This document shows, piece by piece, positions 20,798 through 24,805 of a DNA stretch of 39,884 nucleotides. How positions within the stretch are numbered: the first letter of the stretch is position 1; each line of letters begins with the position of its first letter. Both the position numbers and the translations under genes were made by a program. The stretch is from Terriglobales bacterium (GTDB taxonomy: Bacteria > Acidobacteriota > Terriglobia > Terriglobales > Acidobacteriaceae). The notes beneath the pieces were generated by a model. It did no database searches, was not told where the DNA came from, and saw only the letters and a program-made list of their open reading frames with translations. The stretch spans positions 1 to 39,884 of the forward strand of contig JAICYU010000006.1 in assembly GCA_025934025.1 (NCBI GenBank), written 5' to 3'.

Positions 20798-21288
20798 TGC
20801 CGTTTGCGGCTCCCATTTCTGGAGTGGACCAGCTCAAAGACCGTCCCATGGTGGCAGCGCTCCTTGGCTGGAACGCGAGTGCGGTCCAGGATGCACGCTT
20901 TGATCGCGATGAGCTCACGATCTATGTAACGCGGGAGAGTATTCGGGGCGCCATTGAGTTCCTGAAATCGCAGGGCATCACCGATTTCCTTTCTGACGTG
21001 ACCTGTGCCGACTACTATCCGCGTGAGCCACGCTTTGAAATGGCCTATCACCTGCTTTCCATCAAGAACAAACAGCGCGTACGGCTGAAGGTCAGGCTCA
21101 GTGGCGAAGATCCGGTGATTGAGTCTGTCACGCCGGTGTGGCCTGCGGCTAATTTCTTTGAGCGCGAACTCTTCGACCTGTTCGGCGTGCGCTTCCTCGG
21201 GCATCCCTACTTGCGCCGCATCATGATGCCGGAAGACTGGCAGGGCCATCCTTTGCGCAAGGACTATCCTGTAGAGGGCTATCGCTGA
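20797..21288 (+). CDS. nuoC: NADH-quinone oxidoreductase subunit C
   Basis: A 163-residue 30-kDa-type peripheral-arm subunit that sits beside NuoD near the quinone site. The family signature is visible as ERELFDLFGVRFLGHPYLRR and the C-terminal PLRKDYPVEGYR. It is a stand-alone NuoC, not the NuoCD fusion of E. coli. One-base overlaps on both sides (with nuoA and nuoD) show tight coupling. Confidence 0.95.
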   Translation: MPFAAPISGVDQLKDRPMVAALLGWNASAVQDARFDRDELTIYVTRESIRGAIEFLKSQGITDFLSDVTCADYYPREPRFEMAYHLLSIKNKQRVRLKVRLSGEDPVIESVTPVWPAANFFERELFDLFGVRFLGHPYLRRIMMPEDWQGHPLRKDYPVEGYR

Positions 21289-22493
21289 TGGGCCACTTGA
21301 GCTCCCCTCCAGTTCTCGATCCCACCGCTGACAGAACGATGATCCTCAACATGGGGCCGCAGCATCCGTCCACCCACGGAGTGCTCCGGCTCCTGCTGGA
21401 AATTGATGGTGAGGCAGTGGTCCGCATGGTGCCCGACATCGGCTTCCTGCACACCGGCATTGAGAAAACCTGCGAAGCCAAGTTTTACCAGCAGGTGGTT
21501 CCGCTCACCGACCGCATTGATTACCTCTGCCCCATGGTCAACAACCTGTGCTACGTGATGGCCGTGGAGAAGCTGCTGGGCCTGGAAATTCCTCCGCGCG
21601 CGCAGTGGATGCGGGTGCTGCTGGCCGAACTGCAACGTATCAGCTCGCACCTGGTCTGGCTGGGCACGCACGCCATGGACATTGGCGCCATGTCGGTCTT
21701 CCTGTACTGTTTCCGCGAACGCGAAGAGCTGCTGCGCATTTACGAGATGGTCAGCGGCCAGCGCATGATGACCTCGTACTTCCGTATTGGCGGGCTTGCC
21801 ATGGAGCCGCCGCTCGGCTTCTTTGAAGCGGTAAAGAAATTTCTCAAGATTTTTCCTGAGCGCGTTGACGAATACGAGAATCTGCTCACGGGAAACTTCA
21901 TTTTCATAGATCGCCTGAAAGGCGTGGCCATCGTCAGCGCGGAAGATGCGCTGGCTCTCGGGCTCAGTGGGCCTTCTCTGCGCGCCAGCGGCGTGGATTT
22001 CGATATCCGGCGCGACATGCCTTACTGCGGCTACGAGAAATTCAGCTTCAAAGTCCCTGTGGCCAAAGATGGCGATGTCTGGGCGCGATACATCTGTCGC
22101 GTTCAGGAACTCCGCGAATCCAACAAGATCGCGCAGCAGGCGCTCGACGGCATGCCTTCAGGTTCCATCAAGGCCGAAGCGCCCAAAGTTGTTCTGCCCG
22201 ACCGCGAGAAGATGAAGACGCAGATGGAAGCCTTGATCTATCACTTTAAGATCGTGACGGAGGGTTTCACCGTCCCGGCCGGCGAAGTCTATCAGGCCAT
22301 CGAGTCGCCGCGCGGAGAGATGGGCTATTACGTGGTGAGCGATGGAACGGCCAAGCCGATGCGCGTCCACATGCGCTCGCCGTCATACGCGAATTTGCAG
22401 GCGCTGCCCAAAATGTGCGAAGGCCGCCTGATCGCGGATGTGGTCGCCGCAATTGGAAGCATTGATATTGTGCTGGGAGAAATTGATAGATAG
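21288..22493 (+). CDS. nuoD: NADH-quinone oxidoreductase subunit D
   Basis: A 401-residue 49-kDa-type subunit that lines the quinone pocket. MGPQHPSTHGVLRLLL holds the conserved His-x-STHG loop, and FLHTGIEK, GTHAMDIGA and QPLPKMCEG-like ALPKMCEG follow the family. The C-terminus ends correctly at GSIDIVLGEIDR (D-R conserved). After its stop comes a tandem repeat and the inserted four-helix-bundle gene instead of nuoE. Confidence 0.97.
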   Translation: MGHLSSPPVLDPTADRTMILNMGPQHPSTHGVLRLLLEIDGEAVVRMVPDIGFLHTGIEKTCEAKFYQQVVPLTDRIDYLCPMVNNLCYVMAVEKLLGLEIPPRAQWMRVLLAELQRISSHLVWLGTHAMDIGAMSVFLYCFREREELLRIYEMVSGQRMMTSYFRIGGLAMEPPLGFFEAVKKFLKIFPERVDEYENLLTGNFIFIDRLKGVAIVSAEDALALGLSGPSLRASGVDFDIRRDMPYCGYEKFSFKVPVAKDGDVWARYICRVQELRESNKIAQQALDGMPSGSIKAEAPKVVLPDREKMKTQMEALIYHFKIVTEGFTVPAGEVYQAIESPRGEMGYYVVSDGTAKPMRVHMRSPSYANLQALPKMCEGRLIADVVAAIGSIDIVLGEIDR

Positions 22494-22500
22494 AGATTGG

Positions 22501-22530
22501 TAATCGGGTAATTGATAATCGGGTAATTGA
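22501..22530 (+). repeat. Tandem 15-bp repeat at the left border of the four-helix-bundle gene
   Basis: taatcgggtaattga occurs twice in a row, 22501-22515 and 22516-22530, immediately after nuoD. Its inner 13 bases recur inverted after the next gene (22909-22921). Confidence 0.8.
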
Positions 22531-22549
22531 AGGAGAGCGGTAAGCACGT

Positions 22550-22909
22550 TTGAGCAGCCAATCTGAGCAGCTTCGTGAGCGTACCAAGTCTTTCGCTTTG
22601 CGCATTGTGAAGCTATTCCGGTCGCTGCCACGCAGTACCGAGGCGCAGGTCATAGGAAAGCAACTTTTGCGTTCGGGTACTTCCGTTGCCGCAAACTATC
22701 GTGCTGCTTGCCGAGCGCGCTCCAAACCCGAGTTCATTTCTAAGATTGGGATCGTGATTGAAGAAGAAGTTGATGAATCTGTCCTGTGGATTGAAATGCT
22801 CAGTGACGCTGAAATACTCACGAGAAAACGCCTCGAGCATCTGCTGGATGAAGCGCGGCAACTAACTGCAATCTTTACAGCATCGCGAGAGATCGCAAAG
22901 AAGAAATAA
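22550..22909 (+). CDS. Four-helix bundle protein (23S rRNA intervening sequence / TIGR02436 type)
   Basis: A 119-residue mainly helical protein with the family pattern: SFALRIVKLFRSLP, then IGKQLLRSGTSVAANYRAACRARS, then EFISKIGIVIEEEVDESVLWIEML and helical C-terminal LLDEARQLTAIFTASREI. Members form a pentameric four-helix bundle and occur in intervening sequences of some 23S rRNAs and scattered elsewhere; the biochemical role is unsettled, with nucleic-acid binding suggested by the basic surface. Here it interrupts the nuo operon between nuoD and nuoE, bounded by repeats, and its GC looks lower than its neighbours. Start chosen at 22550 (TTG); upstream sequence is repeat-derived. Confidence 0.85.
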   Translation: MSSQSEQLRERTKSFALRIVKLFRSLPRSTEAQVIGKQLLRSGTSVAANYRAACRARSKPEFISKIGIVIEEEVDESVLWIEMLSDAEILTRKRLEHLLDEARQLTAIFTASREIAKKK

Positions 22910-22928
22910 ATTACCCGATTACCCGATT
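22909..22928 (-). repeat. Inverted copy of the 13-bp repeat at the right border
   Basis: aattacccgatta (22909-22921) is the exact reverse complement of taatcgggtaatt in the left border, followed by a second partial acccgatt (22921-22928). A short direct repeat attttggca (twice, 22926-22943) then leads to the nuoE ATG. Confidence 0.75.
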
Positions 22929-22947
22929 TTGGCAATTTTGGCAATCT

Positions 22948-23430
22948 ATGGCGATTTCTGAAAAGCTCGACGCTTTCTTCTCCGAAAAGATGAAGGAGTA
23001 CCCCACGTCCCGCTCGTTCCTGGTTCCAATGCTCCTCTATAGCCAGGATGAAATCGGGTACGTGAGCGATGAGGTAATTGCCCATCTCGCGAAGAAGACC
23101 GGCCTGACGGAACTGGAAGTCCGCAACGTGATCAGCTATTACTCCATGCTGCGCACGAAGCCAGCGGGGCGCTACAACGTACAGGTATGTACCAACATCT
23201 CCTGCCAGTTGCGCGGCGCGGACGAGCTTTTCGCCCATTGCAAGAAGAAGCTGGGCATCGGACACAAACAGACCACGCCGGACGGCATGTTTTCTCTCGA
23301 AGAAGTCGAGTGCATTGGCGCGTGCAGTTGGGCCCCGGCCGTTCAGGTCAATTACGACTTTCACGAAAACTTAACGCCGCAAAAAATGGATGCGGTACTT
23401 GAAAACTGCAGGAAAAAAGCAAAACAGTAG
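22948..23430 (+). CDS. nuoE: NADH-quinone oxidoreductase subunit E
   Basis: A 160-residue 24-kDa-type subunit with a thioredoxin-like [2Fe-2S] (N1a) domain. The four cysteines are seen as CTNISC, then ECIGAC, with C-x4-C and C-x3-C spacing. The N-terminal helical part (YPTSRSFLVPMLLYSQDEIGYVS) matches the family. It works with NuoF in NADH oxidation. Its start follows the right border repeat of the four-helix-bundle insert, so its leader differs from the tight coupling elsewhere in the operon. Confidence 0.95.
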   Translation: MAISEKLDAFFSEKMKEYPTSRSFLVPMLLYSQDEIGYVSDEVIAHLAKKTGLTELEVRNVISYYSMLRTKPAGRYNVQVCTNISCQLRGADELFAHCKKKLGIGHKQTTPDGMFSLEEVECIGACSWAPAVQVNYDFHENLTPQKMDAVLENCRKKAKQ

Positions 23431-23479
23431 TTAACCGGAGCGATTGCCGATCCGGCCGAGTGTTAAAGGCTAAAAGCTA

Positions 23480-24805
23480 ATGGCTGATTTGGTCTCACAT
23501 CCTGATGAAGTTCGAATTGTGTCGAAGCGCTTCGGAAAAGGGGCTGCGGAAATCGAGCAGTACCTGAAGCTCGACGGCTACAAAGCCGTTCAGAAAGCGC
23601 TTCGGATGCAGCCGGACGAGATCATCAATGAGGTAAAAACCTCCAATCTGCGCGGGCGAGGCGGCGCGGGATTTCCCACTGGGATGAAGTGGGCCTTTGT
23701 TCCCAAAGAATCCGCCAAGCCGAAGTACATCTTGGTCAACGGCGACGAGTCGGAGCCCGGCACCTGCAAAGATCGCCTGATCCTGGAGCACGATCCTCAT
23801 GCAGTAATCGAAGGCGTGATGATTGCCGGACTGGCCGTTGGCGCGAAGGTCGGCTACATCTACATTCGCGGCGAGTATCGCTATCTGGTGGACATCATGC
23901 GCAAGGCGCTCGATGATGCCTACGCCAAGGGCTTTCTTGGCAAGAACATCTTTGGTTCGGGTCGGCAGTTTGATGCCTACTGGCACACCGGCGCCGGCGC
24001 TTACGAAGTGGGCGAAGAATCTGCACTCATGGAATCGCTCGAAGGCAAGCGCGGCATTCCGCGCATCCGTCCTCCATTTCCGGCAGTCGTCGGGCTCTGG
24101 GGCGGTCCAACCGTCATCAACAATGTCGAATCGCTGGCTTCAGTGCCGCACATTCTGTTGATGGGTGGACAGAAGTTTGCCGATCTCGGTCCGCCCAGGA
24201 ACGGCGGCACGCGCCTCTTCTGCCTGAGCGGTCATGTGAACAAGCCAGGAGTCTATGAACTCCCGATGGGCTATCCCATGAAGAAGCTGATTTACGACGT
24301 GGGCGGCGGCATCCCCAACGGTCGCAAGCTGAAGGCCGTCGTACCGGGCGGCTCTTCCACGTTTCTTCTGAATGCGGAAGAAGCGGAGAACATTAATCTT
24401 GATTTCGATTCGTTTTCAAAACGCGGCGAGTTCCTCGGATCCGGCGGCGTTGTCGTGGTTGATGACCAGACCTGCATGGTGAAGTTTGCTCTGCGGATCA
24501 TGAAGTTTTATCAGCACGAGAGCTGCGGCTGGTGTATCCCTTGCCGCGAAGGCACGGACTGGCTCAAGAAGACGCTCACGCGCTTCCATAACGGCGGCGG
24601 GCTCAAGAAGGACATTGATAACATCAAGTACCTGGCGCAGAACATGCTCGGCCGGACCTTCTGCCCGCTGGGCGACGCAGCCGCCATTCCAACCATGTCC
24701 ATTGTGGACAAATGGCGCGATGAGTTCGAAGCGCATCTGGAAGGCAAGCCGTGCCCGTTTGAACCGGAAGCAGTAATTACCGAATTACCCGTGCTGTCTC
24801 ATTGA
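23480..24805 (+). CDS. nuoF: NADH-quinone oxidoreductase subunit F
   Basis: A 441-residue 51-kDa-type subunit that binds NADH and FMN. The NADH site is GRGGAGFPTGMKWAF and the FMN region is GDESEPGTCKDR. The N3 [4Fe-4S] cluster motif is ESCGWCIPCREGT, with the fourth Cys in RTFCPLGDAAA. The last residues (EAVITELPVLSH) are encoded by sequence like the repeat at the four-helix-bundle gene (gtaattaccgaattacccg, about 24774-24792). It follows nuoE after 49 bp. Confidence 0.97.
   Translation: MADLVSHPDEVRIVSKRFGKGAAEIEQYLKLDGYKAVQKALRMQPDEIINEVKTSNLRGRGGAGFPTGMKWAFVPKESAKPKYILVNGDESEPGTCKDRLILEHDPHAVIEGVMIAGLAVGAKVGYIYIRGEYRYLVDIMRKALDDAYAKGFLGKNIFGSGRQFDAYWHTGAGAYEVGEESALMESLEGKRGIPRIRPPFPAVVGLWGGPTVINNVESLASVPHILLMGGQKFADLGPPRNGGTRLFCLSGHVNKPGVYELPMGYPMKKLIYDVGGGIPNGRKLKAVVPGGSSTFLLNAEEAENINLDFDSFSKRGEFLGSGGVVVVDDQTCMVKFALRIMKFYQHESCGWCIPCREGTDWLKKTLTRFHNGGGLKKDIDNIKYLAQNMLGRTFCPLGDAAAIPTMSIVDKWRDEFEAHLEGKPCPFEPEAVITELPVLSH

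Follow-up and report, generated by a model that had tools for sequence, protein, structure and literature searches.

Four-helix-bundle gene cassettes and gene-less hairpins in many bacteria point to a widespread, little-described small mobile element

Between nuoD and nuoE in a Terriglobales bacterium (assembly GCA_025934025.1) lies a gene for a four-helix-bundle (FHB) protein enclosed by repeats that face each other in inverted orientation, and the question that this locus raises is whether the gene is a resident of the operon, part of an RNA structure or the content of a mobile unit. The DNA in question, hereafter the window, is the whole stretch of 39,884 nt of contig JAICYU010000006.1 (positions 1 to 39,884, forward strand); an initial annotation of it had suggested an autonomous or hitch-hiking mobile unit with terminal repeats. 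The reading favoured here, to which we assign a probability of about 0.58, is that the window carries one member of a widespread class of small elements bounded by palindromes, REPIN-RAYT-like and with no recognisable transposase, whose arms are acted on by the FHB protein.

The window cassette and its armed relatives

The locus comprises the following features:
21288..22493, + strand: nuoD, the upstream host gene, an intact open reading frame (ORF) with orthologues in relatives
22499..22530, + strand: left arm, tandem units GGTAATC / GGGTAATT / GATAATC / GGGTAATTGA (7 + 8 nt)
22550..22909, + strand: FHB gene of the PF05635/TIGR02436 family, subfamily B, TTG start, 119 amino acids
22906..22928, - strand: right arm, the left-arm units inverted (ATTACCCGATTACCCGATT)
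22919..22947, strand unassigned: 9-nt direct repeat TTTTGGCAA, lying between the right arm and the start of nuoE
22948..23430, + strand: nuoE, the downstream host gene, an intact ORF

The cassette breaks neither neighbour, as initially annotated, both ORFs being open, and 5 bases separate the TAG stop of nuoD from the left arm. The sequence AATCGGGTAATTGA (14 nt) stands at 22502-22515 and again at 22517-22530, at a step of 15 nt; the 15-bp duplication described earlier is thus present as a repeat of 14 nt, although its "unit" is a 7+8-nt doublet and is itself an instance of arrays with units of 7-10 nt. The 13 inner bases said to recur exactly on the right do so: TAATCGGGTAATT (22516-22528) is the exact inverse of AATTACCCGATTA (22909-22921). 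The longest inverted pair joins 22499-22516 with 22906-22923, 18 nt at 94% complementarity.

Arms were scored by a fixed procedure that sets the 160 upstream bases against the 160 downstream bases read as their reverse complement, a locus with a score of at least 12 being taken as armed. The window cassette scores 15.5; among 1009 control positions with matching geometry, 3 have a value of at least 15. The FHB family is present in 31 of 41 genomes, the window's own counted, with 100 matches, 93 of which were tested as loci after exclusion of 7 weak or split-gene fragments. Inverted arms were found at 70 of the 93 loci, compared with 8 of the 1009 control positions. A second sample, consisting of the best 80 of 569 relatives from 84,980 species genomes (the named loci), spans many phyla, and 58 of its 80 loci are armed, against 8 of 878 controls. 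The cassettes have a median length of 459 nt from outer end to outer end. Carriage by phages was considered and rejected: a single FHB query from a cyanobacterium had no match among 50,697 phage records.

These counts bear first on the simplest explanation, that of a nuo-operon host gene passed on vertically, with flanking repeats that are accidental. Such a gene might well be conserved and might occupy nuoD-nuoE in 10 of 30 genomes, as the FHB gene does; control positions, however, are rarely armed, and on this point the counts speak strongly against it. Furthermore, the 18 FHB genes found in nuo operons are distributed over D-E (10), E-F (4), F-G (2), G-H (1) and K-L (1), nuoC-nuoD cassettes occur at 4 of the 80 named loci, all in Alphaproteobacteria, and FHB genes sit at many non-nuo junctions as well, which makes the host-gene explanation scarcely credible. 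The nuo-operon genes from D-E to G-H are of subfamily B or B-like, and the K-L gene is of subfamily A (see below).

The cassettes tend to follow the direction of the upstream gene. Upstream neighbour and FHB gene share a strand at 73 of the 93 loci and lie on opposite strands at 5, with the neighbour unclassified at 15, and both neighbours are co-oriented with the gene at 57 loci and opposed to it at 3, according to a codon-usage classifier that assigned 42 of 44 test segments correctly on the window used for its training. This co-orientation may reflect a need for read-through transcription or directional insertion.

Other copies with the same ends, for which the initial annotation had proposed a search, did not turn up: each locus has its own unit, and within the window's own genome (G000) the arm recurs as fragments only. 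The window arm unit, with at most 2 mismatches, occurs 100 times in that genome, compared with 14 occurrences of a backward-read control. At G000:C334:9073-9151, arm units of opposite orientation are separated by about 30 nt, an arrangement that resembles a gene-less palindrome.

Related tracts are found further along the nuo operon. A unit resembling the 9-nt repeat TTTTGGCAA forms the arms of the nuoE-nuoF cassettes in G007 and G003, two of the genomes surveyed. In the window itself, a heptamer-like tract GGCTAAAAGCTAATGGCT (23462-23488) reaches into the start of nuoF, with similar tracts at nuoE-nuoF in two other loci (L131 and L136). By eye, palindromes like repetitive extragenic palindromes (REP), of the TTAGCCCAGCGCGGAAGCGCTGGGTTAG type, are seen at nuoE-nuoF of G002 and G006 (L130, L135); several small element families thus occupy the nuo operon.

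The FHB protein and its arm units

The assignment of the gene to the four-helix-bundle family, made already in the initial annotation, is borne out by profile scores above the cut-offs: 55.7 bits against PF05635 (cut-off 33.8) and 80.8 bits against TIGR02436 (cut-off 24). The AlphaFold2 model of the window protein, the alignment for which held 26 of 32 listed subfamily-B proteins, has four helices at a pLDDT of 96.4. Foldseek matches the model to 2rld, an S23-family protein (TM 0.80-0.85, E below 1e-4), to 2gsc, Xcc0516 (TM 0.77-0.83, probability 1.00, E 0.03-0.1), and to Avd of diversity-generating retroelements (4dwl, 8ub7 and 8ub8; TM 0.75-0.79, probability 1.00, E 0.09-0.5). The window protein is accordingly predicted to adopt the four-helix fold of 2rld and 2gsc, and the modelled fold is similar to that of Avd, to which PF05635 has also been likened in the literature (PMC10053308). 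Diversity-generating retroelements need a reverse transcriptase, and G000 has no RVT_1 match. As a required partner, a reverse transcriptase was rejected upon a search of 26 genomes for RVT_1 and Y1 transposases, in which RVT_1 was unmatched in the FHB-bearing G000, G009, G010, G012, G013, G015, G025 and G034.

The FHB protein is conserved, with few amino-acid changes across 12 pairs of orthologues: nonsynonymous divergence (dN) is 0.01-0.28, synonymous divergence (dS) is saturated in 6 of the pairs, and dN/dS is 0.02-0.15 in 5, with a value of 0.28 for a single, very close pair. Broken copies exist at nuoD-nuoE of G015 (truncated) and G022 (partial), together with one Rhizobium copy. At a nuoC-nuoD locus of Rhizobium leguminosarum (L241:1501-1869) the FHB gene has an early in-frame stop and the arms persist, a cassette in decay, and at L068 and L118 the FHB ORF continues into the right arm, so that translation of the repeats adds a C-terminal tail.

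Each arm is a short tandem array of a unit specific to its locus (AGCACTC, GGCTAGT, AGTTCTC, GGGAATA and ATCGGGTG are examples), yet the two arms of one locus match each other when inverted. Under a motif rule of our own, the proteins fall into subfamily A, with the motif NIAEG, and subfamily B, with ANYRA, which includes the window gene; one locus that fits neither was pooled with B. In subfamily A, 40 of the 44 armed loci fit a period of 7 or 14 best, whereas the 26 armed loci of subfamily B divide into 5 of period 7/14, 12 of period 8, 3 of period 15 and 6 of period 9 or 10 (7/14 in A versus B, Fisher p 1.4e-9). The contrast persists within the 11 genomes that carry both subfamilies (7/14 in 23 of 24 A loci versus 4 of 24 B loci), and therefore arm type tracks protein type, not genome. 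A period of 7 or 14 is also found at 42 of the 58 named loci that are armed.

A dependence of heptamer arrays on FHB genes was examined in genome samples. In 400 kb from FHB-bearing genomes there are 31 lag-7 arrays, 17 of them with an inverted partner within 600 nt, compared with 4 and 0, respectively, in 299 kb from FHB-free genomes; both arms of one palindrome can count separately in the partnered number. Because the sampled genomes are unequally related, this contrast is suggestive only. The narrower partnered count was adopted after the outcome of a broad palindrome detector was known (28 in 200 kb FHB-plus versus 35 in 180 kb FHB-minus, swamped by GC-rich sequence).

GxxExxY (TIGR04256), which we take to be kin to PD-(D/E)XK, is a second small gene family of like cassette layout. 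In the same genomes, inverted repeat-array arms (for example, CACGGAGA CACGGAGG CACGGAG) flank 21 of 29 GxxExxY genes versus 2 of 244 controls; there were 47 matches, 30 with loci (L309-L338), and one contig-edge locus was excluded.

This like layout could be taken to mean that the palindromes are themselves mobile or self-generating, through replication slippage and template switching, with the FHB gene as a passenger in the loop. Gene-less palindromes at junctions filled elsewhere and the differing arm copy number of near-identical Nostoc cassettes (both described below) point the same way. A passenger, however, would not be expected to be conserved as the FHB protein is, nor would the unit length follow the protein subfamily even within one genome, and the FHB-free samples are without a partnered heptamer array; on these grounds a mere passenger gene appears unlikely.

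Filled, gene-less and empty junctions

The nuoD-nuoE junction was examined in 30 of the 39 genomes with a nuoE match at E 7.8e-41 or better. It contains an FHB gene in 10, a gene-less palindrome in 3, at most 11 bp separating the aligned gene ends in 7 and something other in 10. The near-empty junctions include those of two members of the window's own genus, G004 (11 bp) and G007 (8 bp), so that the empty sites which the initial annotation had proposed to look for in relatives exist; a family of relatives that all keep the gene, with no empty site and no conservation of the repeats, is not what was found. At nuoD-nuoE of three genomes (L138, L144 and L151, in G024, G020 and G016, respectively), about 380-480 non-FHB bases resemble, by eye, another small ORF.

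Nine further flank sites were searched and five read. At one of these, 3' of a gene named dapB-like by eye, the site is filled in G007, and G001, G002, G006 and G008, all of the window's genus, have a gene-less palindrome of 8-nt units in the same place; at the remaining sites read, the neighbours had other palindromes, other genes or little between the flanks. In Nostoc plasmids, the junction behind a traM-like gene was read in 10 of 26 matching records. Two are filled, by cassettes with GGGAACA arms, one has a gene-less palindrome of related units (with an upstream gene 97.2% identical), one a gene-less palindrome of a different heptamer and 1 a palindrome of another kind, 3 measure 50-52 bp, and 2 are other or decayed. 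Arm copy number varies between near-identical Nostoc cassettes. The nine gene-less palindromes from these sites (3 at nuoD-nuoE, 4 at the dapB-like gene and 2 on plasmids) all exceed 100 of 100 shuffles, and in the three 50-52-bp Nostoc junctions the palindrome score fails to exceed all 100.

The cassette is thus shown to be a discrete unit that occurs in filled, gene-less and empty states. In the same vein, two cassettes of one genome (G001:C169/C183) share 483 nt of homology that stops at the arms, at 77% identity, and accordingly the pair is not recent. The mobile unit with terminal repeats proposed initially survives in part, as a discrete, repeat-bounded cassette, and its ends have to be redescribed as tandem arrays. 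Hopping between two Calothrix plasmids with a common cassette was also considered and found to have no evidence, the pair being uninformative because the flanks are common to both plasmids too.

The arms might also be maintained as RNA. In this explanation, they would pair in the nuo transcript and be cut by RNase III, separating or tuning the nuoD and nuoE messages, with the FHB protein secondary. The cassettes are co-oriented with the upstream gene and sit between stop and start, and a precedent is provided by the 23S intervening sequence of Coxiella (428 nt), in which RNase III cuts a terminal stem and tandem heptamers precede an S23 ORF; this ORF is decaying, the RNA is considered by the authors to matter more there than the protein, and a mobile origin is discussed as a possibility (PMC4990558). 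Pairing in the sense transcript predicts more G.U than A.C mismatches between arms, but over 128 loci there are 144 G.U versus 163 A.C mismatches (p 0.30). Given the lack of a G.U excess, it is probably at the DNA level that the arms become or stay similar, sense-RNA pairing is probably not what keeps them alike, and an RNA hairpin as the selected form was rejected; the RNA folding of the ends, to which the initial annotation had pointed, is not favoured. An RNA element also fits poorly with a protein that changes little while synonymous sites are saturated, with the junctions of G004 and G007 that have no cassette within the same genus and with the Rfam search, in which no family reached the gathering score for the window cassette. 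We consider such an element rather unlikely. As DNA, the whole window cassette folds weakly better than its shuffles (z -1.79; 7 of 100 shuffles equal).

Finally, a resident Y1 transposase (RAYT) could move the cassettes in trans. Y1 genes are frequent (22 of 26 genomes) and have inverted arms at 17 of 19 loci versus 14 of 325 controls (20 loci, one cut locus excluded), thereby serving also as a positive control. By eye, however, these arms are of the REP type, unlike the heptamer arms of the FHB cassettes, so that RAYT-like genes coexist with FHB cassettes but carry different arms, and no Y1 match was obtained in the FHB-bearing G025, G031 and G034, of which G025 has 4 FHB genes in a genome 98% complete. 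Movement by Y1 in trans is therefore very unlikely, and Y1 was rejected as a required partner.

Known elements, a possible mechanism and implications

In anatomy, the cassette is an intervening-sequence-like element outside rRNA, between protein genes. It resembles the 23S intervening sequences in protein family name, size and the terminal inverted repeats around an FHB ORF, and the repeat arrays here recall the tandem heptamers that precede the ORF in some of them, as in Coxiella (PMC4990558). It differs from them in location, between nuoD and nuoE and not inside 23S rRNA, and a 15-mer of 23S rRNA is found in 0 of 338 loci collected in this analysis. The Coxiella element differs further in that the arms described here are locus-variable and co-occur with gene-less palindromes, and the protein described here is conserved and not decaying. 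In behaviour, the cassette is REPIN-RAYT-like, with a single gene between inverted arms and gene-less intergenic palindromes elsewhere in the genomes concerned (PMC3116915), but it fails the defining feature, the Y1 transposase: none is present in the unit, and the arms consist of 7-10-mers in tandem, which differ in sequence from one locus to another. Insertion sequence elements and miniature inverted-repeat transposable elements match no better, since the window cassette is without a transposase and the ends differ among loci and so are not fixed transposon ends.

A further likeness is to the heptanucleotide families, such as GGGAATC in Xanthomonas and GGGGA(T/C)T in Nostoc (PMC4692102) or TAACTGA in Beggiatoaceae (PMC4679880), which, as the FHB arms, are 7-nt, mostly intergenic arrays. 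Xanthomonas campestris, the source species of the FHB structure 2gsc, has 70 convergent inverted heptamer pairs, and the repeats are described as generally unassociated with mobile elements (PMC4692102); for Beggiatoaceae, a repeat-binding protein is considered as a possible mobile element (PMC4679880). The parts covered of these two papers make no link between FHB genes and heptamer repeats, and a literature search, with most subscription journals and preprints outside its scope, found, among the papers listed, no title or abstract that joins FHB genes with non-rRNA repeat arms.

Under the favoured reading of a transposase-free element, each copy would consist of an FHB gene between two inverted short-tandem-repeat arrays, usually behind a gene and co-oriented with it, and gene-less palindromes of like repeat type would be its non-autonomous or remnant form. 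The cassette would be transcribed along with its operon, and the FHB protein, with its Avd-like fold, would bind the DNA of the arms in hairpin or single-stranded form and aid their persistence or spread, whereas cutting and joining would be left to a host enzyme. Beyond the anatomy, we infer that the cassette moves, by which route it does so and that its arms are a target of the FHB protein.

Several observations weigh against this reading. Below the arm threshold lie 23 of the 93 loci and 22 of the 80 named loci. No catalytic domain was matched in the window protein in Pfam or NCBIfam, PF05635 being the sole Pfam match, and in Coxiella, as noted, the ORF decays and the RNA is held to matter more. 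The array contrast comes from a small sample confounded by kinship, with 10 of the 17 partnered arrays contributed by G009 alone, and the samples of the FHB-bearing G004 and G025 have no partnered lag-7 array. At the dapB-like site of G003, G004 and G005 the downstream flank was not recovered, and the stretch shown is without a palindrome. The FHB genes at nuoD-nuoE form no supported clade, and a single clade is not rejected (approximately unbiased test, p 0.087), so that gain and loss there are inseparable and a single ancestral insertion is neither supported nor rejected. Among the loci compared there was no sign of excision, of insertion or of identical recent copies at separate sites, and no target-site duplication could be placed, filled and empty junctions being too diverged for a base-exact boundary. 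The gene-less palindromes, moreover, may be deletion products.

A broader proposal, which we put forward tentatively and regard as possible though doubtful, is that FHB proteins act in trans within a mobility system that has no transposase, each subfamily reading an anchored short repeat of 7 nt or of 8-10 nt and building or copying inverted arrays of it at the DNA level. The 23S intervening sequences, the FHB cassettes and the unexplained heptamer arrays known from Xanthomonas, Beggiatoaceae and cyanobacteria would then form one class, and GxxExxY would drive a parallel one.

The cassettes and gene-less hairpins found in many bacteria point to a widespread, little-described small mobile element. 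A protein family with solved structures and no agreed function is tied to a precise DNA anatomy in many phyla; if the favoured reading is true, the 23S rRNA intervening sequences would join a wider class of elements. Bacterial heptamer repeats so far described without a partner protein gain a suggested one through this association, which also makes FHB function testable, through binding of the protein to its own arms and dependence of the palindromes on the FHB protein.
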